DNA of 64,000 bases from Staphylococcus sp. (GTDB lineage: Bacteria > Bacteroidota > Bacteroidia > Bacteroidales > Muribaculaceae): the NCBI GenBank assembly GCA_023665865.1, contig JAMPDC010000001.1, positions 1,782,223 to 1,846,222 of the forward strand, read 5' to 3'. Shown here piece by piece: positions 15,251 to 31,898 of this stretch (its first letter is position 1; each line of letters begins with the position of its first letter). The position numbers and the translations under genes were made by a program. The notes beneath the pieces are model-generated. The model was given only the letters and a program-made list of their open reading frames with translations, made no database searches and was not told the origin of the DNA.

Positions 15251-15281
15251 TTTGACGGTTGATTGCCCGGATGTAATTTTG
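15251..15281 (+). promoter_or_regulatory. Consensus promoter of the first susC gene
   Basis: TTTG (15251-15254), exactly 19 bp, then TAATTTTG (15274-15281). This fixes the start codon at the ATG 15302 with a leader of about 15 nt; an earlier in-frame ATG at 15263 lies inside the promoter. Confidence 0.85.
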
Positions 15282-15301
15282 TGGCCATACATTACAAACA
15301 G

Positions 15302-18300
15302 ATGAAACATTTATCACTTATAGTTGCTTTTCTTCTCATCACGTGCCATAGCTTGCTTGCCGAGACTCCGGCTCTGCCTGTCGATGAGTCTGCAACCGGG
15401 CCTGCTTTGTCGGGACGCAATGTCTCGGGTATAGTGCGCGACGAGAGCGGTATCCCGATCATCGGGGCTACCGTGGCTCTTGACGGGCACCCCTCGGTCG
15501 GCACCATCACAGATATCGACGGCCGTTTCAGGCTCAATTTTGACCTTCCGGAGACGGACAGTCTGAAGCTTGAGGTTTCCTACATTGGTTATGAGACTGT
15601 CACCATGTCTCTTAAGCCTGGTCAGCGCCATTATGCCATCACCATGCAGGTCGTTAAGACCGAGCTTGATGAGGTGGTCGTGGTGGGCTACGGTTCGCAG
15701 CGCAAGGTTGATCTGACTGGGTCTGTGGCCTCTGTCTCCAGCGGTGCGCTTGCCGATCGTCCCATCACCAATGTCACCACCGCTCTCGCCGGTTTGGCAT
15801 CGGGCCTGACCGTCAGCAATACCGGGGGCAATACTCCGGGCTACGAGTCGCAGAGCATCAGAGTGCGCGGGCAGGGTACTCTCAATGATGCCGCTCCGCT
15901 CGTTGTGGTCGACGGCATGACCGGCATAGCACTCAGCGATATCAATCCTCAGGACATTGAGAATATCTCGATATTGAAAGATGCGGCATCGTCGGCCATC
16001 TACGGCTCGCGTGCGGCCAACGGAGTGATCCTTGTCACCACCCGCCACGGTCTCGAATCGGCCCCGCGTCTGACCTATAGCGGCAATGTCTCGTTTGAGA
16101 CCGTGGCCAAACGTCTCAATCTCGTCACCGACTATGCTGACTTCATGGAGATCCAGAACGCTGCCCTCGTCATCAACGGCCAGGCTGCACGCTTCTCGCA
16201 GGGGAAGATTGACGAGTGGCGCAACGATGCCGGCCGCAATCCGACCATCTATCCCAACACTGACTGGCAGGATCACATCTACCGCAATCCATCGGTTGTG
16301 CAGAATCACAACTTTGCTGTGACAGGCGGAGGGCGGCGTGTGCGCTATAACATGTCGTTCGGCTACGTCGACAATCCCGGCATGATCTACTACACCGACT
16401 ATTCCCGCTATCAGCTGCGGGCCAATCTTGATGTCAATATCAAGCCTTGGCTGAGTGTCGGCACAAATCTGTTCGGATATATTGACAGCAATAATCCCTC
16501 GTCGGAGAATGCGGCTGCCGGTGGCGATGTCATCTTCGGCTCCGGAGCTTTCAACACAGTCCCCGGCATGACCCTCTACGATCCTGTCACCGGACTCTAC
16601 GGTGGCATCCAGAATCCTGAGGAGGAAAACGTCAGCAATTTCAATCCCTATCGCCGCCAGTGGTTCTACAAGTCGGAATTCCCGACCAAGACGCGCCGTA
16701 CTGTGGCCAAACTCTATGGCAGCCTGAAGCCGATCAAGGGTCTGACACTCCGCGCATCGTTTTCCTACAACTACTGGACCCGCCGTGTGGAGCAGCATCT
16801 GACCGACCGCGACCTCTACCGCTTCACGGCCGAAGGGCCTGTGCTCATCAGGGAGGGAGTCGTCCGCACATATATCCGCCGCTACAACTATGCCAACACC
16901 TACCGCTCCTCGGAGCTCACCGCGAGCTATGATTTCCGCATCTCGGGACTGAGCGGTTCGGTGCTCGCCGGCGCGAGCCAGGAGTATGACAAGAATGAGA
17001 AAGAGAGTTTCCTGCGCTATGATCTCATCGACGATTCGCTGACATCTATCGACGCCGCCACCACCAACGGTCCGATCAGCGGCAACTATACGGAGTGGGC
17101 CATGCGCTCATATTTCGGACGCATCAATCTTTCGTGGGAAGACAGATATCTCCTCGAGGCCAATATCCGCTCCGATGGCTCGTCGAAATTCGCACCTGGC
17201 AAGCGCTGGGGCTATTTCCCCTCCGTCTCCGCCGGTTGGCGCATCTCCGAAGAGAGTTTCATGGATCATACAAACGACTGGCTCAACCAACTGAAGTTGC
17301 GTGCGTCCTACGGTTCGCTGGGCAACAACGCCACGACGAGCTACTATATGTATCAGTCGCTCTTTGCCACGGCCAACTATGTGCTCAACGGCAATATCGC
17401 CGGCGGTTTCGCCCAGACAATCCTCTCGGATCCCAATCTCACGTGGGAGAAAACCTACATGACCAATGTCGGTGTCGACTTCGCCTTCCTCAACAGCCGC
17501 CTCTCGGGTAGCTTTGATATCTACAACAAAGATACCAAGGGTATCCTCATCTCGCTCCCCGCTCCGCTCGAGCATGGCACGAGTGTGGTCCCCAACCAAA
17601 ATGCCGGCGAGGTCAACAACAAGGGTCTCGAGCTCGACATCCACTGGAACGACCGCATAGGCAAGGTGGGCTACAGTGTGGGCTTCAACATGAGCTACGT
17701 CCGCAACCGCGTCACCAAGTTTCAGGGCGATGTCTCGTCGATCGATGATGTCTATAAGACTCAGGAGGGGCGGCCGATCCGTCAGCTCTATGTGCTGAAA
17801 GTGGACCGCATCGTGCGCGATGAGGCCGATCTCGCCTATGTCGACGGCCTCGTTGATGCCAATCCCGACTATTTCGCCACCTATCAGCGTCCGGAGCTGG
17901 GCGATTTCCTATATGCCGACACCAACGGTGATGGAAAGCTCGACAGCAACGACCGTGTGGAGATCGGCGGTGGAAGCCTGCCCAATTTCACCTACGGTAT
18001 CAGCCTCGGACTCAACTGGAACAATTTTGATTTCAGTGCGCTCTTCCAGGGGGTGGGGGACTACAAGGTCTACTACAACAACCAGGCCTTCCGCTTCGTG
18101 ACCGTCATGGGGCAGTCGCTCAACAAGGACATCACCGACAACGCCTGGACTCCCGAGAATCCGTATGGCTCGAAGTATCCCGTCCTGCGCAACAGTTCTA
18201 ACGGGAAGAACAACATTGCGAGCGATGCCTTCGTCCACAATGCCGCCTATTTCCGCTGCAAGAACATCCAGTTGGGCTACACGGTGCCTCAGACCCTCAC

Positions 18301-18454
18301 CCGCAAGTTTTTTGTCGAGAATCTGAAGGTCTATGCCAGCGTCGACAATCTTTTCACCATCACAAGTTTCCCCGGCCTTGATCCCGAAGTCGGAGCGACA
18401 GTGGGCTATCCTACCGTCCGTCAGTATTCCGTCGGTCTCAACGTCACATTCTGA
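15302..18454 (+). CDS. SusC/RagA-family TonB-linked outer membrane protein
   Basis: 1050 aa from the ATG at 15302, giving a proper signal peptide (MKHLSLIVAFLLITCHSLLA). In order: a carboxypeptidase-regulatory-like domain (about 40-125, VSGIVRDESGIPIIGATVAL), the TonB-box region LDEVVVVGYGSQRK, a plug domain with SIRVRGQGTLNDAAPLVVVDG and ILKDAASSAIYGSRAANGVI, and a 22-strand-type barrel ending in a terminal Phe (SVGLNVTF). It forms the TonB-driven outer membrane channel for a glycan or peptide captured by the SusD partner encoded 18 bp downstream. No degradative enzyme is adjacent, so the substrate cannot be inferred. The divergent LytS/LytTR pair is the likely regulator. Confidence 0.95.
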   Translation: MKHLSLIVAFLLITCHSLLAETPALPVDESATGPALSGRNVSGIVRDESGIPIIGATVALDGHPSVGTITDIDGRFRLNFDLPETDSLKLEVSYIGYETVTMSLKPGQRHYAITMQVVKTELDEVVVVGYGSQRKVDLTGSVASVSSGALADRPITNVTTALAGLASGLTVSNTGGNTPGYESQSIRVRGQGTLNDAAPLVVVDGMTGIALSDINPQDIENISILKDAASSAIYGSRAANGVILVTTRHGLESAPRLTYSGNVSFETVAKRLNLVTDYADFMEIQNAALVINGQAARFSQGKIDEWRNDAGRNPTIYPNTDWQDHIYRNPSVVQNHNFAVTGGGRRVRYNMSFGYVDNPGMIYYTDYSRYQLRANLDVNIKPWLSVGTNLFGYIDSNNPSSENAAAGGDVIFGSGAFNTVPGMTLYDPVTGLYGGIQNPEEENVSNFNPYRRQWFYKSEFPTKTRRTVAKLYGSLKPIKGLTLRASFSYNYWTRRVEQHLTDRDLYRFTAEGPVLIREGVVRTYIRRYNYANTYRSSELTASYDFRISGLSGSVLAGASQEYDKNEKESFLRYDLIDDSLTSIDAATTNGPISGNYTEWAMRSYFGRINLSWEDRYLLEANIRSDGSSKFAPGKRWGYFPSVSAGWRISEESFMDHTNDWLNQLKLRASYGSLGNNATTSYYMYQSLFATANYVLNGNIAGGFAQTILSDPNLTWEKTYMTNVGVDFAFLNSRLSGSFDIYNKDTKGILISLPAPLEHGTSVVPNQNAGEVNNKGLELDIHWNDRIGKVGYSVGFNMSYVRNRVTKFQGDVSSIDDVYKTQEGRPIRQLYVLKVDRIVRDEADLAYVDGLVDANPDYFATYQRPELGDFLYADTNGDGKLDSNDRVEIGGGSLPNFTYGISLGLNWNNFDFSALFQGVGDYKVYYNNQAFRFVTVMGQSLNKDITDNAWTPENPYGSKYPVLRNSSNGKNNIASDAFVHNAAYFRCKNIQLGYTVPQTLTRKFFVENLKVYASVDNLFTITSFPGLDPEVGATVGYPTVRQYSVGLNVTF

Positions 18455-18472
18455 TAAATCGTCACATCATAC

Positions 18473-20242
18473 ATGGAATCAGCTATTACTATAAAAAAGA
18501 CACTCATTCACTCTATCCTCAGCGCAGTGGGTCTGGCCACACTGTTGGGTCTTTCGGCTTGTGAGAGCCTTGACTACACACCCGCTGACCAGATGTCGGG
18601 ACAGACATTCTGGCAGACGGAAGCCCACGCGCGTCAGGCAGCCGTCGGCATGTATGCCGCTATGAAAGCTCCCTGGTGTTTCGGTATGGAATTCACCTTC
18701 GACATGTGTAGCGACATCGCCGACGGCACCTCCCCCTGGGCCGATGTCTCGCGCGGCACCTCATTCACCTCCGGCAGCGGCGGTGTCCAGAATCATTGGC
18801 AGCATCTCTACGAGCTCGTCCATCGCGCCAACACCGTCATCCGCAACGTTGCCAAGATGCCAATCAGCCGCGAGACGATCGACCGAGTGACCGGCGAGGC
18901 GAGGTTTCTCCGCGCCATGGCCTATTTCCGCATGCTCAACTGCTGGGGTGGGGTCCCGTACTACGACGAGAGTTGCGATGTCAACCTCGAGTTTGCCAAT
19001 CTCAAAGCTCCACGCTGTCCGGCCGAGGAGCTCCGTGGCCATATACTCGCCGATCTTACCGAGGCGATCGAAAAGCTCCCCGTAGCCTGGGGCGACAGTG
19101 ATCTCGGGCGTGCCACCAGAGGCGCGGCCTATGCTCTCCGAGGCAAGGTCTATCTCTTCAACCGTCAGTGGGAGGAGGCTGCCGCCGATTTCGAGGAGAT
19201 CGTCAACAACCGCAACGCTGACTACGGCTACAGTCTCCATCCCGACTACAACCAGCTCTTCCGCCTCTACAACGGCCTCCACAGTCCGGAGATGATCTTC
19301 TCCATCCAGTCGATCGACGGCAACACTTCGGGCTATGCGCTCGACATCGTGTCGTATTTCGGCAACAAATCCACCATGCGCCTCATAGCCGGCAACGCCA
19401 TCGTGCCCTCGACGCGCCTCGTCGACATGTATGAGAATCTCGACGGTACCCCCTTTGACTGGGACGCCATCTTCCCCGGCTTCAACGCCGCTGACCCCGA
19501 CACTCGTCGCAGCCGGCTGAGTGTGGCCATCGACCAGGGCAGCACCTGTGTCACCGACCTCCTTGACTGCGACACCACAGCTGTCATGGATGCCTACCGC
19601 AAGCGCGACCCGCGCCTCTGTCTCAACGTCATCACTCCCTATTCCCACTATCTCGGTACCGATGCCGGCTCTAATCCGAGAGACAAGCAGTTTGTCATCG
19701 CCGATCCCTCAAAGGGTGGAGCACCCATGGAAGCCATGGCATTTATCCGCAACTCCGAAGGCTGGACGTCATACTTCTGGCGTAAATGGATCCCCACCGG
19801 TAACCTCGACGGCTATTGGGGCGAATATAACCGCACACCCTACGAATTTCCCCTCATCCGCCTCGCCGATGTCATCCTCATGCTCGCCGAAGCCTACAAC
19901 GAGACCGGTCGCGTCGACGATGCCGTGGCTGAGGTCAACAAAGTCCGCGCACGCGCAGGCATGCCGCTGCTCAATTCAGGTCCCGGATGGCTCGCCGTCG
20001 CCGACGCTGCCTCGATGGCCGAACGCATCCGCCGCGAGCGTGCCTGCGAACTCGCCGGAGAGGGTCAGCGCTACTGGGACCTCCGCCGCTGGGGACTCCT
20101 CCAGGCCTCTGTCACCGATGCACGCGACATCCTCGGCAACCTCATGTACACCCGCACCTACCAGCCGCGCCACGAGCTCTGGCCCATACCCCTCGTCGAA
20201 CTCGAACGCAACACCAACCTCACCCAAAACCCCGGTTGGTAA
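18473..20242 (+). CDS. SusD/RagB-family surface lipoprotein
   Basis: 589 aa. The signal ends in a lipobox LGLSAC; the next residues are Glu-Ser-Leu. The SusD fold is visible from LDYTPADQMSGQTFWQTEAHA through a TPR-like core (RFLRAMAYFRMLNCWGGVPY, ALRGKVYLFNRQWEEAAADF) to the typical C-terminal region RLADVILMLAEAYNETG, VNKVRARAGMP, RERACELAGEGQRYWDLRRW and LWPIPLVELERNTNLTQNPG. It caps the SusC channel encoded just upstream and captures its substrate. Third codon positions become strongly C-rich towards the 3' end, a trend that continues into the next gene. Confidence 0.95.
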   Translation: MESAITIKKTLIHSILSAVGLATLLGLSACESLDYTPADQMSGQTFWQTEAHARQAAVGMYAAMKAPWCFGMEFTFDMCSDIADGTSPWADVSRGTSFTSGSGGVQNHWQHLYELVHRANTVIRNVAKMPISRETIDRVTGEARFLRAMAYFRMLNCWGGVPYYDESCDVNLEFANLKAPRCPAEELRGHILADLTEAIEKLPVAWGDSDLGRATRGAAYALRGKVYLFNRQWEEAAADFEEIVNNRNADYGYSLHPDYNQLFRLYNGLHSPEMIFSIQSIDGNTSGYALDIVSYFGNKSTMRLIAGNAIVPSTRLVDMYENLDGTPFDWDAIFPGFNAADPDTRRSRLSVAIDQGSTCVTDLLDCDTTAVMDAYRKRDPRLCLNVITPYSHYLGTDAGSNPRDKQFVIADPSKGGAPMEAMAFIRNSEGWTSYFWRKWIPTGNLDGYWGEYNRTPYEFPLIRLADVILMLAEAYNETGRVDDAVAEVNKVRARAGMPLLNSGPGWLAVADAASMAERIRRERACELAGEGQRYWDLRRWGLLQASVTDARDILGNLMYTRTYQPRHELWPIPLVELERNTNLTQNPGW

Positions 20243-20462: not shown

Positions 20463-21944
20463 ATGGAACAGACGATCTACTCACGCTTCAAGCGACTCGT
20501 CAACAATGACCCGGACCATCCTGCAGTCATCGACGAGCGCACCTGCGTCACCTACGCAGGCCTCGACACTCTTGTCGACACCCTAATCTCACGCTTCCCC
20601 TCCTTCATACCCGCACGCGTCGGCATAGTCATGGACCACAGCGTCGAAATGATAGCCTCACTTCTCGCCGTCATCAAGGCCGGCGCAGCCTTTGTCGCAG
20701 TCGAGCCCGACTTCCCCCCGGGACGACTCGTCACCTTCCTCGTCGAAAACGGCATCGACTTCGTCATCACCCAGGAGCAACACGCCCACCTCCTCAACGA
20801 CTTCAACCGCCTCATCATCCGGCCCGACGTCTACGTCGACCCAGCGCTCCACCCGCTCCCCGACCGTTCACGCCCCGACCGACCCGCCTACATACTCTAC
20901 TCCTCCACCCCCGACGGCTACCCGCTCGGAGTCGCCGTAGGCAACTCGCAGGTCATCCACTTCACCGACTCATTCGGCAAGACATTCAACATCAGCCCCG
21001 ACGACATCCTCCTCCAATTCTCAGCCTGCATCAACAACATCTTCATCCAGGAAGTCTTCGGCGCGCTCCTCAACGGCGCAGCCATCGCAATACCCTCCGT
21101 CGCCACACGCAACGACCCACAGCGACTCATCCGCTTCATCGACGACCAATATGTCACCATCGTCAGCGGATTCCCCTTCCTCATGACCGAACTCAACGCC
21201 GTCGAAGCCCTCCCCGTCACACTCCGTCTGCTCATCAGCAGCGGAGACACCCTCCACGCCCACGCTGTCAGCCACCTCCTCCCCCAGATCACCCTCTACA
21301 ACACCTACGGCCCGCCCGAAGCGACAGTCTCGGCCACAGCCTACTGCGCAAACAACGGCAACATACTCCCCGACGGCACATACCCCATCGGCCGCCCAAT
21401 CAACGGAACCGACATTCTCATCCTCGACGACGACCTTCGCCCCGTGGCCCCCGGACAGCCCGGCGAAATATGCCTCACAGGCGACGGACTCGCCGACTAC
21501 TACACCGGCGACCACCGAGCCGACATACAACCCTTCGACACCCTCCCCGACGGACAGCGCATATTCCACACAGGCGACATCGGCCGCCAGCTCCCCGACG
21601 GAAACTTCGCCTACCTCCATCGCAAAGAGACCGAAGTCAACATCCTCGGCCGAAAAATAGTCACCGGCGAAATCGAACGCGCACTCCGCACATCCGACGA
21701 AGTCAAAGACTGCACAGTCCTCCACTACACCGACGAACAAGGCTCAGCCTACCTCGTGGCCTACGTAGTCCCCGCCACCCGCAACTTCCGCCTATCATGG
21801 GTCAAAAACCGCATGGCACAATACCTCCCCGCCTACATGATCCCCGAATTCTTCGTCCTCATCCCCTCCCTCCCCACCGACTCAGCCGGAGCCGTCAACC
21901 CCCACGCCCTCCCCGTAGTCCTCAAAGACACCAAAGTCAGCTGA
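20463..21944 (+). CDS. Stand-alone NRPS-like adenylation domain protein, degenerate at catalytic motifs
   Basis: 493 aa, the length of a free adenylation domain, with no carrier or condensation domain. Recognisable core motifs are A5 NTYGPPEATV (280-289), A7 FHTGDIGRQLPDG (368-380), A8 ILGRKIVTGEIE (394-405) and LPAYMIPEFF (455-464). Two motifs deviate. The A3 P-loop reads LYSSTPDGYPLGV (145-157) instead of the Ser/Thr/Gly-rich loop with Lys, so Leu stands in the Lys place. The A10 loop reads LPTDSAGAVN (470-479), with Ala where the adenylation-catalysing Lys is expected. Activity as an amino- or fatty-acid AMP ligase is therefore doubtful; it may bind rather than activate its ligand. Its codons are extremely C-rich compared with neighbours. 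It stands alone between a terminator and a noncoding mosaic. Confidence 0.85.
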   Translation: MEQTIYSRFKRLVNNDPDHPAVIDERTCVTYAGLDTLVDTLISRFPSFIPARVGIVMDHSVEMIASLLAVIKAGAAFVAVEPDFPPGRLVTFLVENGIDFVITQEQHAHLLNDFNRLIIRPDVYVDPALHPLPDRSRPDRPAYILYSSTPDGYPLGVAVGNSQVIHFTDSFGKTFNISPDDILLQFSACINNIFIQEVFGALLNGAAIAIPSVATRNDPQRLIRFIDDQYVTIVSGFPFLMTELNAVEALPVTLRLLISSGDTLHAHAVSHLLPQITLYNTYGPPEATVSATAYCANNGNILPDGTYPIGRPINGTDILILDDDLRPVAPGQPGEICLTGDGLADYYTGDHRADIQPFDTLPDGQRIFHTGDIGRQLPDGNFAYLHRKETEVNILGRKIVTGEIERALRTSDEVKDCTVLHYTDEQGSAYLVAYVVPATRNFRLSWVKNRMAQYLPAYMIPEFFVLIPSLPTDSAGAVNPHALPVVLKDTKVS

Positions 21945-21984
21945 CACACCTTAATATATATTAACCTCTCCCTCTGCTGAAATA

Positions 21985-22080
21985 GGTACAGGAATTCAGA
22001 AAAGACAAAAACTACAGAATAGATTATCCTGAAAAGATTATAATCATCTGTAATTTTTGTCTTTTCTGAATTTTTGTACC
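21985..22080. repeat. Long imperfect inverted repeat (34-bp arms)
   Basis: Arms 21985-22018 and 22047-22080 are complementary except for three positions and enclose a 28-nt AT-rich loop. The core of the right arm is ttttgtcttttctgaat. It begins 41 bp after the adenylation gene stop. It could be a terminator-like hairpin, the ends of a very small mobile element or a regulatory RNA; no flanking target duplication was recognised. Confidence 0.7.
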
Positions 22081-22090
22081 CATTCCCGCC

Positions 22091-22786: not shown

Positions 22787-25700
22787 ATGAAAAAAGAAGT
22801 TTTACTTTCTTTATTGATGACCACACCAGTGGCTTTCCCGGCCCTTGCTGACATTAATCTTCCCGACTTGACTAAGCCCGGCGAAAATGGTTCAGCATGG
22901 AAATCTGAAGCCAGCAGCTTCATTGACGGCTATGGCGTCCATGATGGTACTGGTATGTACTGTCCGGTTGGCATTAAGAGCATTTCTCGTACTCTCACTC
23001 TCCCCCAGGGCGAATATGCTATCGAACTCAACGGTACAAACTGCAAGCTTATCGTAAACGAGGCAGGTGATGCAAATGTTACTGTCATAACTAACCGTCA
23101 GAAAGTAGTTACAGGTTTCAAAGTATTATCCGGTAAAAAGCAGTCGGTAACTGTTAAAATCGTTCCTGTAAACGCTAATAAAGACGACAAGGGTAACGTT
23201 GTTGAGGAGGATTTCTATTTCAGCAGCCTTGACCTTACTCTCAAGTTCAATTTCTGGACTGAGTATAACGATACTTACAAGTCTTCTTTCGAGAAACTCA
23301 GCTATCCCGAAAATATCTGGGGTAATGTTAATACCTCTGAGACAGCTATCGCTCTGCGCGCAGCGCGCGAACAGCTTGTTAAAGAATATCAAGCAGCTTG
23401 GGATAATCTCAACGCAATCGGAGATAATCAGACTCTTGATACTTACACCAAGTTTGAACTTTGGGCTAATCCCAATGCTCTTGAGGTTTCTACCAAGGCT
23501 CTTGCTGCTAAGATTGACGAGCATAATGCTAAAGTTAAAGCAGAGAATACTCGCTTTGAGAACTTCACAACCAACACTGGCAACAAATCATATTATACTT
23601 GGGTGCAGGAAGACCTCGTGCGTAAGGCCGAGTCTCTGTCTAATGATATCAAAGCTGTCCTCGCAGACAAGAATCACAAGGACTACCAGTATGTGAAGGA
23701 TCAGAAGTTTGATGAGCGTTGCGCTGCTCTTCTTGAGGCTCTCCCCGGACTCAAGACTCTCATCAACGAGACCTTCCCCGCTGATCTCATGGAGACTGAG
23801 ATTGATATCAAGAATCTCCAGGATAAAGTTACTGCACTCGACAACGAGTATCAGGAACTCAACTCATTCCTCAACGGTGCGTCAGAGGATATGCTCGCTT
23901 ACAATAGCTTCAACTCAAACAATAATTATCTTGAGGTCCTCAAAGCATATCAGCAGGCGCTTATCGATCTTTCTGAGGATCCCGCTACTCCCAAGAAGGG
24001 TTATCCTACCAATGCTTTCGCAGAGAAGATGGTCGAGCTCTCCATTCCTATGGATAAGGCTATGGATGCTGCAAAAGCGTTTGTTACCGTTAAGGTTGTT
24101 AACGGCGTAGAATCTGCAGTCCTCAATAATATTTCAGGTGCTGCTACTCAGGGTAAGGCTCAGGCTGCTCTCGAGGCTATCGCTGAAGCTTCTGACCTTA
24201 TCACTGCTAATATGCAGGAATGGGCTGACTTCACAGCTGCTCAGAATGCAGAAATGGCTACCGCTTACGCAGACGTTGCTGCTGCAAACACTACCCTCAA
24301 GGATGTCACTGACAATCTTGCTGTTCCTTCTCAGTTCCAGAGCCAGTATGACAAGCTCGTCAACAATGTCAAGGCCGCTATCGAAACAATGAAGGGCGTA
24401 ATTGACGCAGCTTACGGTAAGGATCTCGCAGCTCCTGCTACTTACGCTGACCAGAAAGCTGAGGTTGTCGAGCAGCAGGGAATTCTTGACGACTTCAATA
24501 TTAAGGCTGGAAACCTTAATGACGTTTACGGTTCATACAATGACCTCAAGGCAGATGTCAAGAAAGTTGACGTTGATGGCTTCCTCGAAGGTCTCTATGC
24601 CAACGACTATGCTGAGATCGACGCTCTCTTTGCCGCTCTCACCAAGATCGACGACAAGACCAAGATTGACGCTATCAAGGATCGCATCGAAACTCTCAAG
24701 AGCGCTTCCGGTGATCTCGTGGAGGCATTTGGTAATGCAAACGTCATGACTGACTACAATAGCTTCGTTACCTACGCAACCACTAAGAAGACTATCCTTG
24801 ACCCCGCATCCAAGCTTTGGACCAACACTCTCAAGCAGATGACCGATGCTAAGGTCGTGAAAGGCGTTAATGATATCAATGACAAGATCAATGCTATCAT
24901 CAAGGCTCACACTCCGACTTCAGTCATGGATACCTACAACTCGATTGTAGCTCTCAACGTAAAAGCCGGCGAGCTCAAGGATCAGATCAATGATTACCGC
25001 AAAGACTTCACCAAGAAGGCTTCTGCTGAGAACCTTGCATACGCTCAGGCTAAAGTTAACTACATCAACGAAGTCCTCGCTAATGCAGTATTTGCTAAGT
25101 CAGAGGCCGGTGATGCTAACAAAGCTGCTGTTGAGGAGAAGGTTGCTGCCCTCCAGACCAAGATTAATGATCAGGAAAGCAAAATCAACGGTGGTGACGG
25201 CTCTGTAGAAAAGACTTACAATGAGATCGATGCCAAGATCAAGGGCTTCGTCAATACAGATGTTCCTGCTATCGAGAAGCTCATCAAGAAGACTATCGAT
25301 AACTACGCTGCCTACAATACCCTCCTCGCAGAACAGACTAACCTTGTCAAGGAAATTGACAATGTCAAGACCACTGCGATGAATGTAGCCAAGAGCCCGG
25401 CCCAGGAATACTACCTCGGTCTTATCAACCGCAACGCTAAGAAGACCGGTTACTATGACAAAGCCGATGCTATCGCAACTGATATCAATAATGCTTACGC
25501 TGCTATCAAGACCGATGAGTCTAAGAGCGCAGCCGCTCTCAAGAGCAGCCTCTCTCAGACCATTAAGGACTTCCTCAATGGTACTGTAACTCCTCTCAAG
25601 GGCGCTATCGCACTCAACGAGCAGTCACACGACGAGCAGCTCCAGGCTTCTACCAGCGTACGTACTGTCCTCTCAAATATCGAGGCTCAGCTCAAGGCTA

Positions 25701-28700
25701 CTGCTGACCAGGGTAACTTCAACCCCTTCGAGGCTCAGCTCAAGAAACTTTCCGAGGATCTCCTCGCTCTCGACCGTCAGGTTACTACCGAATATGGCAA
25801 GGGCGCTTCAAATGCTCTCTCTCTCGGTGGTATCGTAGCTAAGTATGACGCGATCGCTGACGCAGCCAAGGCTATCCTCGATGAGTTCACTCCAAACTAC
25901 AACAAAGCAGTTGCAGAGGAGAACGAACGCCTCCTCGGCGAATTCGGTTGGACCAAGCTCAGCAAGGAACTCAACGATACTTACTACAACTCTGTCCAGA
26001 CATTCATCGACTTCGCTTACAATGTGACCAACCTTGGCTACAAGGCTCACATCGAGGCTAATGGCGGTTTCCACGATATCAGCGCTCTCTTCACCTATCA
26101 GCCTGAAATCGGCGAGATACAGAACGCAGTTCTCAAATATGTCCTCGAATGTAACTCTGTAGTTGATGAGAACGGTAAGCCTCACGACCCCGAACTCATC
26201 ACTGAAGAGGGCCTTGCTGATTGGATGCGTGATGCTACTGCTCTCAAGGCAGACATGAAGGCTGTCGGCGACAACGCTCTCGCTCAGGCTAACGCTTTTG
26301 CTGAGTCTTACTGGCAGAAGATCTGGGAAGATGCAACCAATGGCGCTCCCGCTATCTACGCTGCTAACGAGGCTACTCTCAAGGCCGGTGGCGTTGATGA
26401 CAAGTTTGTCATGGTTCCCGATCCCAAGGACAACAAGAAAGAAGTTAAGAAATATGTTGTCACCGTCCTCCGCGATGCTCTCGCAACCGGTACAACCGCT
26501 ATCGCAAATGCCAAGAACCTTGCTTATGTCAAGACCGACAAGGGTGAACTCACTGATACCCGCAAGGAAGCTCTCGGCAGCGTGATGAACGAGATCGCCA
26601 ACGAGCTTGACAAGGTTAAGGCCTTCACTCCGGCTGAACTCCAGACCATTGCGATGAACATGTGGGTTGCTTCTCACAAGGCAACTACCGATCGTCTCAC
26701 TGAGATGAACGCTGACTTCGCAAAATTTGACTTCGTTTCTGCTGACGCCATGAAGACTCCGAAGGAGAACTTCGATAAGGCTGTCAAGGCTATCGGCACT
26801 CTCAATACCAAGGCAGTCAAGGTTAATGAAGGTCTCCTCGGCGAGAAACTCAATGACTTCATGACTGATCTTGAGACTGAATGGAATAAGGCTAATGACG
26901 AATACACTGCAATTAAGAAGATCAACGATACCAACTCTGCCAACAAGGCTCTCTTCGATGCCTATACCGCAGATATCGCTGACCTCCGTGCAGACTTCAA
27001 GGTCCTCTGTGACTTCGGTGGCACTCTCGCAGCTGATAACGCTTGCCTCGCTCAGATTGCAAACGCTATCGCTAACCTTGAGAATATTGTCAACGGCAAC
27101 AAGGCTGACTACACAGAGGCAGTGAAGACTACTATCGTCAATGCTGTCAAGTCTATCAAGGAGAATACCATTCCTTCAGGCTACGGTGAAGTTGCTAAGG
27201 CTGAGGTCAAGGCTCTCCAGGGAATGGTTCTTGAGCTCCGCAGCTCATGGGCTGAGGATTCAAAGGACGGCAAGGATATCGATCTCGATGCATACCGCAC
27301 TCAGATTGACGACTTCGAGAAGACCTACATTGTTGGTACTCCCGAAACTCCCAGCCTCCTCCAGCAGGTTAACGATATCATCAACGATCCCGAAATCGAG
27401 TCTGTTGAGGAAACTATCGAACCCCTCGTTGCCCTCGGCGCTGAAATGCGTGCTCTTGAGGCAGAACTTTCTGACATCCAGATCGCTCTCAAGAAGAGCT
27501 GGGGCAATGACATCCTCGGTGATCTCATCAAGGATCTCTCTGCTACTTACATCGCAATCGACAACAATATTTCTTCTCTCACCAACTACGATGAGACACT
27601 TCAGGAGAAATATGGTGAAGAGTTCGAAGGCTTCAAGACTCGCCTCGATGCCATCAAGGATGCTTGGGAAGCTGCCGGCAACAATGCCATCATGCAGGAA
27701 AACAACTACACTGACGGCATGAACGCTCTCGCCGCTGAGGTTAACGATGCTCTCGCCGCTGTCAAGGCTGACCAGAAGGTTATCGATACCCACCGCGCTG
27801 CTTACGCTGACCTCAACGCTAAGTATGAGGCTCAGGTTGCCGCTCTCGATGCTATCAAGAACCGTCTTGCTGACGACGATATCTTCTTCGTCAAGGATAC
27901 TGAAAAGGTTGACGAAAAGGGCAATGTCGTTAAGGATTCAGAAGGCAAGCCCGTGATGATCAACGAGCAGCAGGAAGAATTCCGCGCCGATATCGCAGCT
28001 ATCGAGAAGTCTCTCGCCGAGACCCTCAAGGATCTCAACGAGCAGAACGCCAAGGGCAAGATGAACGAGGATTCAGTTCTCAAGAACTGGGACGGCGACA
28101 ATGCTATCCCCGCTGCCGTTACCGCTCTCAATGGCGAAGTTATCGCAGCTATCCACAATGCACTCAAGCCCGTGATGACTGACGAGCTCACAGCTCTCTA
28201 CGAGGGTATCAAGAAGGCTAACATCCTTCCTGCTGCCAAGAAGGAGATCCTCGCTCAGTATGCTGCTCTCGGCGAAGACGCTGCTAAGGCTGTCAAGGAT
28301 CTCGAGGACAAGGATGGCAATGCTCTCACCGGTGACAAGCTCATCGATGCTCAGATTGCAAACATTGCTGCTGTTCACGCTATCCTCGACCGTGCTGAAG
28401 CTCTCGTTGCCGCAGGCGCTGAGAAGACCTTCATGATCGGTGACCTCGACAGCAACGGTGACGTTGACATCCTCGACGTTCAGGAAATTATCACTCTCGT
28501 CGGTGAAGGCGCTGCATACGAAGACCTCGATGAGGTTAAGGCTGCCGCAGCTGATACCAACGGTGACGGTATCCTCGGTGTCGGTGACGTCGCAGGCGTT
28601 ATCAATGCTTCGCTTGTCCTCCCCGAAAAGGCCAAGGCTCCCCGCTTCGCACCCCGCGCAGTTGTTGACGGTGCCAACATCGTTGCCGCTGAGTTTGTCA

Positions 28701-29182
28701 GCGAAGAGGCCGGTGTTCGCCGCTATGCAATCAACATCCAGAACGCAGCTTCAGTTGTCGCTGGTCAGATTGACCTCGTACTTGCTGAGGGCATGACTCT
28801 CGTTGATGTTGTAGCTGCCCAGCGTGCCGCTAACCACGATGTTGCTCTCTTCCACAATGGCATCGCCAACAAGCGTGTCATCCTCAGCAACCTCGAGAAC
28901 GCTGCAATCGAAGGCGCTGCCGGTGCTGTCATCTATGTTGATGTCATCGGTGAAGGTCAGGTTAACGTTGACAATGTTGTCTTCGCTGACAAGTCATCTG
29001 TTGAATATCGCTTCGCTAAGCCCGAAGGCACTACCGGTATCGAAGATACAGTTATCGACGGTAACGGCAGCATGAAGCAGCGCATCTACAACGCTGCCGG
29101 TCAGATGCTCCGCGGTATCCAGCGTGGTGTCAACATCATCCGCAACGCTGACGGTTCTGTAACTAAAGAGTACCACAAGTAA
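22787..29182 (+). CDS. Giant secreted helical protein with dockerin-like and cohesin-like C-terminal domains
   Basis: 2131 aa. A signal peptide (about 1-21) precedes a beta-rich domain (about 30-155; LPQGEYAIELNGTNCKLIVN). Residues about 165-1880 are almost entirely predicted alpha helix and coiled coil, rich in Ala, Lys, Asp, Glu, Asn and Leu, without a recognised enzyme motif. A dockerin-like pair of calcium loops follows: DLDSNGDVDILD (1886-1897) and DTNGDGILGVGD (1923-1934). Then comes a cohesin-like beta domain (about 1955-2080; INIQNAASVVAGQIDLVLAE) and a short tail (IYNAAGQMLRGIQRGVNII ... VTKEYHK) like C-terminal sorting tails of Bacteroidales secreted proteins. Restricted codon choice (CTC, AAG, GCT, GAC, ATC) suggests high expression. 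It is followed by a terminator and a related 866-aa gene. A structural surface fibre or adhesin is inferred; no enzyme activity is claimed. Confidence 0.85.
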   Translation: MKKEVLLSLLMTTPVAFPALADINLPDLTKPGENGSAWKSEASSFIDGYGVHDGTGMYCPVGIKSISRTLTLPQGEYAIELNGTNCKLIVNEAGDANVTVITNRQKVVTGFKVLSGKKQSVTVKIVPVNANKDDKGNVVEEDFYFSSLDLTLKFNFWTEYNDTYKSSFEKLSYPENIWGNVNTSETAIALRAAREQLVKEYQAAWDNLNAIGDNQTLDTYTKFELWANPNALEVSTKALAAKIDEHNAKVKAENTRFENFTTNTGNKSYYTWVQEDLVRKAESLSNDIKAVLADKNHKDYQYVKDQKFDERCAALLEALPGLKTLINETFPADLMETEIDIKNLQDKVTALDNEYQELNSFLNGASEDMLAYNSFNSNNNYLEVLKAYQQALIDLSEDPATPKKGYPTNAFAEKMVELSIPMDKAMDAAKAFVTVKVVNGVESAVLNNISGAATQGKAQAALEAIAEASDLITANMQEWADFTAAQNAEMATAYADVAAANTTLKDVTDNLAVPSQFQSQYDKLVNNVKAAIETMKGVIDAAYGKDLAAPATYADQKAEVVEQQGILDDFNIKAGNLNDVYGSYNDLKADVKKVDVDGFLEGLYANDYAEIDALFAALTKIDDKTKIDAIKDRIETLKSASGDLVEAFGNANVMTDYNSFVTYATTKKTILDPASKLWTNTLKQMTDAKVVKGVNDINDKINAIIKAHTPTSVMDTYNSIVALNVKAGELKDQINDYRKDFTKKASAENLAYAQAKVNYINEVLANAVFAKSEAGDANKAAVEEKVAALQTKINDQESKINGGDGSVEKTYNEIDAKIKGFVNTDVPAIEKLIKKTIDNYAAYNTLLAEQTNLVKEIDNVKTTAMNVAKSPAQEYYLGLINRNAKKTGYYDKADAIATDINNAYAAIKTDESKSAAALKSSLSQTIKDFLNGTVTPLKGAIALNEQSHDEQLQASTSVRTVLSNIEAQLKATADQGNFNPFEAQLKKLSEDLLALDRQVTTEYGKGASNALSLGGIVAKYDAIADAAKAILDEFTPNYNKAVAEENERLLGEFGWTKLSKELNDTYYNSVQTFIDFAYNVTNLGYKAHIEANGGFHDISALFTYQPEIGEIQNAVLKYVLECNSVVDENGKPHDPELITEEGLADWMRDATALKADMKAVGDNALAQANAFAESYWQKIWEDATNGAPAIYAANEATLKAGGVDDKFVMVPDPKDNKKEVKKYVVTVLRDALATGTTAIANAKNLAYVKTDKGELTDTRKEALGSVMNEIANELDKVKAFTPAELQTIAMNMWVASHKATTDRLTEMNADFAKFDFVSADAMKTPKENFDKAVKAIGTLNTKAVKVNEGLLGEKLNDFMTDLETEWNKANDEYTAIKKINDTNSANKALFDAYTADIADLRADFKVLCDFGGTLAADNACLAQIANAIANLENIVNGNKADYTEAVKTTIVNAVKSIKENTIPSGYGEVAKAEVKALQGMVLELRSSWAEDSKDGKDIDLDAYRTQIDDFEKTYIVGTPETPSLLQQVNDIINDPEIESVEETIEPLVALGAEMRALEAELSDIQIALKKSWGNDILGDLIKDLSATYIAIDNNISSLTNYDETLQEKYGEEFEGFKTRLDAIKDAWEAAGNNAIMQENNYTDGMNALAAEVNDALAAVKADQKVIDTHRAAYADLNAKYEAQVAALDAIKNRLADDDIFFVKDTEKVDEKGNVVKDSEGKPVMINEQQEEFRADIAAIEKSLAETLKDLNEQNAKGKMNEDSVLKNWDGDNAIPAAVTALNGEVIAAIHNALKPVMTDELTALYEGIKKANILPAAKKEILAQYAALGEDAAKAVKDLEDKDGNALTGDKLIDAQIANIAAVHAILDRAEALVAAGAEKTFMIGDLDSNGDVDILDVQEIITLVGEGAAYEDLDEVKAAAADTNGDGILGVGDVAGVINASLVLPEKAKAPRFAPRAVVDGANIVAAEFVSEEAGVRRYAINIQNAASVVAGQIDLVLAEGMTLVDVVAAQRAANHDVALFHNGIANKRVILSNLENAAIEGAAGAVIYVDVIGEGQVNVDNVVFADKSSVEYRFAKPEGTTGIEDTVIDGNGSMKQRIYNAAGQMLRGIQRGVNIIRNADGSVTKEYHK

Positions 29183-29209
29183 TCTTTGACAGATAATATC
29201 CTATAAGCA

Positions 29210-29258
29210 AGCTGTGCCGCCGGCTATATCAAGGGCGGCGGCACAGCTCTCTTTTTTC
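29210..29258 (+). terminator. Terminator after the giant gene
   Basis: A perfect 13-bp stem (29210-29222 with 29236-29248) is followed by ctcttttttctcc. No TAnnTTTG promoter is seen between it and the ATG at 29298, so the next gene may depend on read-through, giving a set ratio of the two products (inference). Confidence 0.85.
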
Positions 29259-29297
29259 TCCTGCCAATCTTATAGTAAAATAAAAATCATTATCGCA

Positions 29298-31898
29298 ATG
29301 AATTTACTCAAAAACTCGCTTGTGTCAAAGCTGATGCTTGTCGCTCTCATGCTTGTGGGTGCAAAAGCTATGTCGGCCGAGTCCAAGTTATATATCGAGC
29401 CTGTTGTCGTTGATGACTACAAGGTAAGATCTATCCCTGTTGTCCTCGAACATGATGGCACCATGGGTGCGCTCAACTTTGATATTGAGCTCTCGAAATC
29501 TCTCGAATTCGTTTCTTCAGATTTCGATAAAGCAATTACCCGTAACCCTGACTTCGTAGTTATTGCCAATGGTCAGCAGATGACCGGTACCGTGAAAGTT
29601 GATGCCGGTTACCAAGATTCTCAGACTGCCCGTGTGATGGTCGTTTCACGTCGCAATATGCCTTTCCCCACCGAAAAGGGTATTGTAGCTTATGTCAATG
29701 TGAAGGCTAAGGCTAATTCACTTGACAAGACTATCGAGGCTAACCCCGAGTTGGCTATCACTGTTAAGCGTGTCACTGTCACTACTCCTGACAACTCAGC
29801 TCACGAGACACTTGCTGACAAGACTTATGACCTCTCTCAGATTTCAGAAATCAAGCTTGCTGTCACTGACGGCGACGTGACTATGAAACCCGGCGAGACT
29901 GCAAAGGTTATGCTTAATCTTGTCAACAACGTGGATGTTGCCGCCTTTACATTCGATGTTGAGCTTCCCGAAGGTTTCTCAATCGACGTAAATGACTGCG
30001 GTTTCACTTCTCGTGCGAGCAACGGCGCTTGGCTTGATGCTTTCCCCAACAAGACCAACCCCAACATGACCCGCTTCATCGTCACTGATATCGCTACCAA
30101 CCACGCTTTCACCGGCAAGTCTGGTGATATCATGTGGCTCGGCATCAAGGCTCCCGAGTCTTTTGATGACAAAGTGACTGTCAAGGTTACTAAAGTAGAA
30201 GTTGGTACTAAGGAGTCTAAGACTTTCTATGGCCCCGATTTCAATTTCAATATCATCAACGCCGGTCCTATCGAGGAAAACCGCGTAGCTGCTAACGCTG
30301 CTGCTCTCCAGGCTGACAAGGACGCAATCGCTGCTCTCCAGGCTGCTCTCGAGGCTGCCAAGACTGCCGCTGCTGAGAAATATGCCGCTTTCGACGCTAC
30401 TGCCGCCGTTGCTGCTATCAACACCGCTATCGCAGCCCTCGACAAGAAGGCTGACGACGAAGCTGCCCGCGTAGAAAAGGAAGGCAACTATGTTCCCCAG
30501 GTAACTGAAGAAGCTGTTGCTCCCGTCAACGCTGAGATCGCCGCTCTCGTAACTAAGGCTAACGAAGCCCGCGTAGCTGCCAACAAGGCCGCTTACGATG
30601 CTGACATCGCCAAGATCACTCCCTTCGAAACCCAGCTCGCCATGGCAATCGCCCAGGTAGCCGGCAACGAAAACTACGACGTGACTGCCGACAAGGAAGC
30701 TGCTGAGAAGGCTATCGCCGACGCTAAGGAAGCTGCCGCTGCCAACCTCGCCAAGGTTGCTGAAGAAGGCGTCTACGCTTCTACCCTCGACACAACTCCC
30801 ATTGCAACTGCTATCGCAGCCATCGCCAAGAACGCCGACGCTGCAACTGCTGAAGCTGCCCGCGTAGCTGCCAACAAGGCTGCCAACGAGGCTGAACTCG
30901 CTGCCATCGCTGCTGTTGAGACCAAACTCAACGAAACTCTCGCATCTGTAGCCGAGACTTATCCCGACTATGACGCCGCTGCTGAAAAGGCTGCTATCGA
31001 GAAGACCATCGCTGACGCTAAGGAAGCTGCCGCTGCCAACCTCGCCAAGGTTGAGAAAGAAGGCACTTACGCCGCTACCTTCGAAGCTGCTCCCGTTGAA
31101 GAAGCCATCGCCGCTATCGTAGCCAACGCCAAGGCTGCTGCCGACAAGGCTGCTGCTGAAGCCCTCAAGGCTGCCAACGACGAGGCTAAGGCTAAGGCTG
31201 ACGCTGAAGTCGCTGCTCTCAACGATGCCCTCAAGGCTGCTGTTGCTGAGATCGCCGAATCTTGCCCCCTCGTAGCTGAGCTCTACAATGGTGAAGCTGA
31301 GGCTGCCGCTATCGCAAGCCTCGAAAGCGCTATCAACGCTGCTTACGAGAGCCTCACCCTCGCTGCTGACTACGACAACGTGATCGCTCCCGCTGCTGAC
31401 GTCAAGGCTGCTATCGCAAGCCTCGTTGAAGAAGCTAAGGCTGCTCAGGCTGCCGAAGAAGCAGAGATCGCCCGCGTTGAAGCTAACAAGAAGGCTTACG
31501 AAGCTGAACTCGCCGCTATCCAGCAGCTCCTCGACGAGCTCCAGGCTGAGGTTGACAAGTTTGACAAAGAATGGACTAACCTCCAGTTCGAAACCCGTCT
31601 CGGCGTTGAGAACTACATCAACAGCCTCGGCACCAAGGTTGAGAACGAAAACAACCGCGTCGCTTCTGAAGGCACTTACAACAACCAGATCAAGGATTCT
31701 GACCTCGCAATGGCACGCGGCCTCATCGCCGAGTACGTTCAGAAGGTACAGACCTCTGGCATCGACTCAATCGTAGCTGACGAAAACGGTGCAGTACGCA
31801 TCTACACCATCGACGGTGTTCGTCATGACCGTCTCGTTCCCGGTGTTAACATCATCGTTAAGGAAGACGGAACTACTACCAAGGTTTACGTTAAATAA
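29298..31898 (+). CDS. Secreted protein with two cohesin-like domains and five Ala-rich helical repeats
   Basis: 866 aa from the ATG at 29298; an upstream in-frame ATG lies inside the terminator. The signal peptide ends near residue 27. Two cohesin-like beta domains follow: about 28-190 (SIPVVLEHDGTMGALNFDIE) and about 195-325 (GETAKVMLNLVNNVDVAAF, FDVELPEGFSIDVN). Five tandem helical repeats of 96-103 residues begin at about 329, 425, 522, 623 and 726, each opening with a motif like ARVAANKAA and containing segments such as IADAKEAAAANLAKV. The tail (VRIYTIDGVRHDRLVPGVNI ... TTKVYVK) resembles the tail of the upstream giant protein. Codon choice is as restricted as there. The pair probably act together at the cell surface; partner binding between dockerin-like and cohesin-like modules is a testable inference, not shown. 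Confidence 0.85.
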   Translation: MNLLKNSLVSKLMLVALMLVGAKAMSAESKLYIEPVVVDDYKVRSIPVVLEHDGTMGALNFDIELSKSLEFVSSDFDKAITRNPDFVVIANGQQMTGTVKVDAGYQDSQTARVMVVSRRNMPFPTEKGIVAYVNVKAKANSLDKTIEANPELAITVKRVTVTTPDNSAHETLADKTYDLSQISEIKLAVTDGDVTMKPGETAKVMLNLVNNVDVAAFTFDVELPEGFSIDVNDCGFTSRASNGAWLDAFPNKTNPNMTRFIVTDIATNHAFTGKSGDIMWLGIKAPESFDDKVTVKVTKVEVGTKESKTFYGPDFNFNIINAGPIEENRVAANAAALQADKDAIAALQAALEAAKTAAAEKYAAFDATAAVAAINTAIAALDKKADDEAARVEKEGNYVPQVTEEAVAPVNAEIAALVTKANEARVAANKAAYDADIAKITPFETQLAMAIAQVAGNENYDVTADKEAAEKAIADAKEAAAANLAKVAEEGVYASTLDTTPIATAIAAIAKNADAATAEAARVAANKAANEAELAAIAAVETKLNETLASVAETYPDYDAAAEKAAIEKTIADAKEAAAANLAKVEKEGTYAATFEAAPVEEAIAAIVANAKAAADKAAAEALKAANDEAKAKADAEVAALNDALKAAVAEIAESCPLVAELYNGEAEAAAIASLESAINAAYESLTLAADYDNVIAPAADVKAAIASLVEEAKAAQAAEEAEIARVEANKKAYEAELAAIQQLLDELQAEVDKFDKEWTNLQFETRLGVENYINSLGTKVENENNRVASEGTYNNQIKDSDLAMARGLIAEYVQKVQTSGIDSIVADENGAVRIYTIDGVRHDRLVPGVNIIVKEDGTTTKVYVK
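30282..31770 (+). repeat. Five in-frame tandem repeats of 288-309 bp inside the 866-aa gene
   Basis: Aligned repeat starts are 30282, 30570, 30861, 31164 and 31473 (offsets 288, 291, 303 and 309 bp, all multiples of three). Repeats two and three share long identical nucleotide stretches, for example gctgccgctgccaacctcgc near 30733 and 31027, so unequal recombination could change the copy number. The end is approximate. Confidence 0.8.

Follow-up and report, generated by a model that had tools for sequence, protein, structure and literature searches.

Cohesin-dockerin gene pairs in Muribaculaceae and other Bacteroidales: a candidate calcium-dependent surface assembly delivered by type IX secretion

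The window analysed here, 64,000 nucleotides of contig JAMPDC010000001.1 (assembly GCA_023665865.1; Muribaculaceae; forward strand, 1,782,223 to 1,846,222), encodes two large proteins, A and B, each probably one half of a plug-and-socket unit that depends on calcium and sits on the cell surface. Gene A (window positions 22787..29182, plus strand; 2131 amino acids (aa)) encodes a start that resembles a signal peptide by eye, about 1700 probably helical residues, a dockerin, a cohesin and a short tail. Gene B (29298..31898, plus strand; 866 aa, counted from its ATG at 29298) lies head to tail with it across an intergenic gap of 115 bases, and encodes a signal-peptide-like start, two cohesins, an alanine-rich stalk and a short tail. 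Both proteins would leave the cell by their signal peptides and, via their tails, by the type IX system, the tails then holding them at the surface, where the dockerin of A would dock with calcium on one of the two cohesins of B. Because B has two cohesins, one B could hold up to two A proteins; the cohesin of A would stay free for another dockerin, supplied either by the next A, so that a chain forms, or by the genome's other dockerin protein. The dockerin end would be an exchangeable coupling for the front part of the protein, which is helical here and consists of BspA-type repeats or a protease elsewhere. On a wider scale, there is reasonable support for the view that the Bacteroidales own an order-wide, type IX-delivered cohesin-dockerin assembly system with a dockerin gene followed by a cohesin gene as its basic unit, of which the window holds a minimal, non-enzymatic surface scaffold, and which one genus of the window's family expanded into machinery resembling a cellulosome, its dockerin proteins numbering from dozens to well over a hundred. 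Such a system would have stayed unseen because the standard model does not extend to most of its cohesins.

Profiles built from relatives still recognized the modules when the window and its five orthologues were excluded, which left 46 of the 64 cohesins and 21 of the 27 dockerins. The leave-out cohesin profile scored 41.2 bits on the cohesin of A (residues 1964-2078, 28676..29020), 39.2 bits on the first cohesin of B (residues 28-170, 29379..29807) and 63.0 bits on the second (residues 192-316, 29871..30245), and the leave-out dockerin profile scored 19.3 bits on the dockerin of A (residues 1882-1943, 28430..28615). The best of 2000 residue-shuffled A and B ends scored 7.6 and 8.7 bits, far below these values, so the matches exceed chance. 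A sequence-only reading of the window had proposed the pair as dockerin and cohesin proteins of a gut Bacteroidales; its open reading frames (ORFs), protein lengths and calcium-loop positions were reproduced exactly, and its three cohesin-like domains, one in A and two in B, were recovered by the cohesin profile. The loops are two 12-residue stretches, DLDSNGDVDILD (residues 1886-1897, 28442..28477) and DTNGDGILGVGD (residues 1923-1934, 28553..28588), accompanied by flanking helices (19-31, 40-46 and 56-68 of the dockerin model, at moderate confidence). Pfam Dockerin_1 scores 11.6 bits on the whole of A and 17.6 on the segment (curated cut-off 22.9), and the orthologous dockerin in genome G195 lies above that cut-off at 50.4 bits. 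Against solved structures, the dockerin profile has known dockerins among its best matches (4fl4 and 2mte, E about 1e-13).

The two beta domains of B come right after the signal-peptide-like start. Pfam Cohesin has no match in the window's genome, and 7 of the 20 genomes tested have one above its cut-off. The beta domains of A and B match the nine-stranded cohesin fold, the first domain of B less clearly, in keeping with the cohesin-type fold that the sequence-only reading had called for, with 2jh2, 2vo8 and 2xdh as the nearest solved folds. It is very improbable that they only resemble cohesins in fold and serve as stalk or adhesin domains, with the dockerin-like segment stiffening the stalk by calcium and no assembly taking place: two fold comparisons gave cohesins in all of their first 45 and first 32 rows, the best solved matches of the full cohesin profile are cellulosomal cohesins (5n5p, a scaffoldin cohesin, E 2.7e-5), and dockerins and cohesins co-occur both in genomes and in adjacent genes. 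With its two cohesins B has the character of a multi-cohesin scaffold as known from cellulosomes.

Full-length searches of 61 genomes matched A in one other genome (G033) and B in 12 others (eight in the tail only, four in the cohesin regions: G033, G035, G039 and G022); the ends that carry the modules had to be searched with profiles. Among 198 genomes of the family, the profiles matched the A end in 55 and the B head in 52. Outside genus g41 (whose loci L100-L102 were excluded), 34 loci were taken from among the profile matches listed; they are not a random sample, some genomes contribute two or three, G207 and G214 are near copies, a contig end falls inside the gene at L154, and profile A10 was made from loci which it then counts. 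At 25 of the 34, a cohesin gene comes directly after the dockerin gene and on its strand; at seven, a single protein holds both modules, one has the reverse order (L103) and one lacks a partner nearby (L152). The two genes are seldom found apart, and the frequent separate occurrence that would have spoken against the sequence-only reading did not turn up. Gene gaps in 18 measured pairs, two of them from g41, range from -29 to 227 bases. Five loci are orthologous to the window's pair (A, 2025-2091 aa; B, 351-1535 aa), and the six A proteins share 24-41% pairwise identity. The parts in front of the dockerin vary, comprising a middle part of the window's type, LRR_5 and Big_2 repeats at several loci, and a subtilase at L162.

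In a quick tree built from few columns, all six A cohesins cluster together (99), as do the six first cohesins of B (99); a third cluster (94) takes in four of the six second cohesins of B. Each socket has thus kept its own position, in a unit conserved across several genera, which argues for a unit inherited whole. Since the A and B cohesins group apart, their specificities may differ, and this counts against a reading that we regard as doubtful, namely that A polymerises head to tail, each dockerin binding the cohesin of the next A in a true fibre that B starts or ends. A alone does hold both plug and socket, but loci whose first protein is cohesin-less cannot polymerise in this way. Somewhat less doubtful, though still unlikely, is an arrangement in which A ends in a single rigid piece made of its dockerin and cohesin, the former sitting on the latter much as X modules adjoin some clostridial dockerins, with A and B unbound and their pairing due to joint production of stalks. 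The two modules stand side by side in the A protein of nearly every pair read, and C-D-C fusions (C, cohesin; D, dockerin) exist. On the other hand, the upstream proteins of L158, L159 and L162 have a dockerin with no cohesin behind it, 46 of 64 dockerin ORFs of the g41 genome G107 have a C-terminal dockerin without a cohesin, and the cohesins of B would be left without partners. Docking of A on B is preferred to both. The sequence-only reading had gone on to suggest that the two proteins assemble with each other into a surface fibre; the modules and the conserved pairing bear it out in part, and from the sequences we infer mutual A-B binding, with a fibre as a conceivable outcome.

A dockerin is present in 53 of the 62 family genomes that bear a cohesin vs 29 of the 136 that do not (Fisher 6e-18, a value that ignores kinship). 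Nine of the 62 have no Dockerin_1 match, and seven of these nine match the dockerin-cohesin profile; neither module was found in 107 of the 198 genomes. Several observations weigh against A and B as halves of one unit. The Fisher value is uncorrected for kinship, and 29 of the 198 genomes have a dockerin with no cohesin detected. The window's own dockerin is weak by the leave-out profile and by Pfam, and in some relatives position 3 of the second loop is not occupied by a canonical residue. No curated sorting model recognizes either tail. Finally, the unit is patchy within the window's genus, as none of its 26 other genomes has a full-length A or B and the profiles, run on at least 16 of them, matched G003 and G005, each with one cohesin and one dockerin. 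Seven of the 26 match B in part, six in the tail and one in the cohesin region. In one genome of the genus (G022), a protein at L022 (44-2605, minus strand) matches the cohesin part of B weakly and combines a cohesin-like region with a similar tail; no dockerin was noticed in it. For genome G027 of genus g2, 43 dockerin candidates gave at least 30 matches, yet the genomes matched by a cohesin do not include it; its system may use still other cohesins, or none.

The genome of the window encodes the type IX translocon protein SprA (SprA_N, E 1e-187), as do nine relatives tested alongside. The tail of A (about 50 residues, 29027..29179), a probable sorting signal conserved in the five orthologues, and that of B (31743..31895), another probable sorting signal, which recurs in other secreted proteins of the family, are alike by eye, as the sequence-only reading had remarked. 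In relatives, A ends in DUF6383, in Por_Secre_tail (L162) or in a short tail as in the window. Because neither tail in the window is matched by a curated sorting model (TIGR04183), we can only infer type IX export of A and B; at the TIGR04183 cut-off of 23, L162 passes with 35.8 bits and two other relatives fall below (20.8 and 19.5). Between A and B, a GC-rich hairpin followed by a T run (29205..29253, plus strand) folds like a terminator. A strong hairpin of differing sequence occupies this gap in all six orthologous pairs (the window and L104-L108), three of which have clear T runs behind it, and their gaps measure 85-227 bases vs -29 to 111 in twelve other pairs. Most likely, the hairpin would act as a partial terminator and so fix the proportion of A to B.

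The system is broader than the sequence-only reading had thought, recurring in other families of the order and reaching cellulosome-like dockerin numbers in genus g41. At E 1e-6, the cohesin profile matched 31 of 393 genomes of the order, spread over 20 of 207 genera, and two of these genomes belong to the window's family. Among 11 loci outside the family, chosen for strong or multiple cohesin matches, nine have a dockerin gene directly upstream of the cohesin gene and two are fusions. Multi-cohesin proteins occur there, with eight and five cohesins at L021, ten at L169, where the contig end truncates the protein, and four at L170, each group lying directly behind a dockerin gene.

Genus g41 looks cellulosome-like. 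With up to 150 candidates scored per genome, Dockerin_1 matched 36 times in G211, 89 times in G177, 97 times in G107, and at least 146, 150 and 151 times in G217, G223 and G228, respectively; the fourteen other genomes of this 20-genome search had 0-4 matches. Fifteen g41 genomes have at least about 30 dockerin matches each. In 40 stretches read from G107 (L109-L148), 64 ORFs carry a dockerin: 46 at the C-terminus without a cohesin, 12 near the N-terminus, three as dockerin-cohesin and three otherwise. Counted over the best 25 of 35 Pfam families, these ORFs contain BspA-type repeats (9), C10 peptidases (7), formylglycine-enzyme-like domains (6), CotH (5), CBM26 (4), alpha-amylase (3), GHL10 (3) and GH53 (1). 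These domain partners suggest that the targets in G107 would be starch and protein rather than cellulose. The G107 scaffold (L100) has six cohesins and a C-terminal dockerin and lies directly behind a dockerin-cohesin gene, in the same order as A and B.

The genome of the window has two dockerin proteins, A and one other, neither with a recognized enzyme domain. The second (L001, 1-1731, minus strand), about 29 kilobases beyond the end of the window, has an N-terminal dockerin and four Big_2 (immunoglobulin-like) repeats, and is a possible further partner for the cohesins. The pair looks built as a cohesin-dockerin assembly, yet a cellulosome was rejected for this genome, which has only these two dockerin proteins rather than many dockerin enzymes. 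A most likely has an adhesive or scaffolding role together with B, preferred because neither protein has a Pfam enzyme domain above cut-off.

The closest known counterparts are the cellulosomes of Clostridia and Ruminococcus (type I-III pairs), which share the cohesin fold, the two-loop dockerin and the presence of several cohesins per protein. In contrast, the sequences of A and B are too distant for the Pfam cohesin model, neither has an enzyme or cellulose-binding domain recognized by Pfam, and the host is gram-negative with a type IX translocon. Cellulosomes use S-layer or sortase anchors, where A and B have tails. A complex predicted for Ca. Stygibacter (Cloacimonadota) likewise combines dockerin-bearing secreted proteins with a cohesin protein that has a C-terminal sorting domain, but is described in PMC8542988 as one 3755-aa scaffold with carbohydrate-binding domains plus dockerin enzymes, whereas A-B is a two-gene unit repeated through the order and non-enzymatic in the window. 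The planctosome of freshwater Planctomycetes, proposed for peptidases, has an adaptor protein with dockerin and cohesin but, as outlined in PMC6461901, differs from A-B in its anchoring and accessory domains. The nearest solved folds, non-cellulosomal cohesins of Clostridium perfringens and Archaeoglobus, are by their Protein Data Bank titles single modules of glycoside hydrolases or of an archaeal protein. We know of no gene pair of the A-B layout. In many relatives A is itself a BspA-type leucine-rich repeat surface protein (LRR_5, Big_2) as known from Bacteroidales, with the dockerin-cohesin end and the downstream cohesin gene as the new element; the A protein of the window lacks such repeats.

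The sequence-only reading had held that structures of this kind are not generally described in Bacteroidales, which agrees with the relevant passages of PMC5831590, PMC12997984 and PMC7260996. The rumen survey of PMC7260996 reports dockerins without recognizable cohesins in Bacteroidetes genomes, their role unclear and the cohesins maybe too distant to recognize, and a passage of PMC5831590 describes a Bacteroidetes lineage without cohesins or dockerins as consistent with other Bacteroidetes genomes. In the camel rumen, dockerins were noted in Bacteroidetes and cohesins in certain species (PMC6071333). A 2026 study (PMC12997984) found both modules in 78 Bacteroidetes genomes, calls this surprising and in need of study, and states that no cellulosome has been described outside Firmicutes, a statement qualified by the predictions outlined for Cloacimonadota (PMC8542988) and Planctomycetes (PMC6461901). 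No paper among those listed describes the A-B gene pair in its title or abstract opening. With candidate plug and socket partners encoded side by side, and in many diverged versions, the question of Bacteroidetes cohesins is open to direct testing. Should A and B bind, gut bacteria generally regarded as dependent chiefly on polysaccharide utilization loci would turn out to make ordered complexes at their surface as well, and new plug-socket pairs would become available as a set.

In A, residues 171-1880 (23297..28426) make up the long middle part, whose length is kept in the five orthologues; it is rich in alanine (15%), lysine, aspartate and leucine and poor in proline and glycine (6% together), and matches no Pfam family. 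The stalk of B (residues 331-815, 30288..31742) is 32% alanine and has a weak period of about 98 residues (autocorrelation 0.15 vs 0.12 for the highest of 20 shuffles). By this composition, alanine-rich and poor in proline and glycine, the middle parts of both proteins are probably helical. Autocorrelation gave no period for A, self-BLAST of A and B gave no off-diagonal matches, and whole-protein searches of Pfam and NCBIfam returned only the sub-threshold dockerin and weak unrelated matches. Rfam families were absent from window positions 14000-40000. A SusC/SusD pair (15263-20242) is separated from gene A by the gene of a lone AMP-binding (adenylation) enzyme at 20463-21944. Behind the adenylation gene, an invertible promoter was considered at the inverted repeat 21976-22089 (43 nucleotides, 86% complementary) and set aside, for the repeat folds as one long hairpin.
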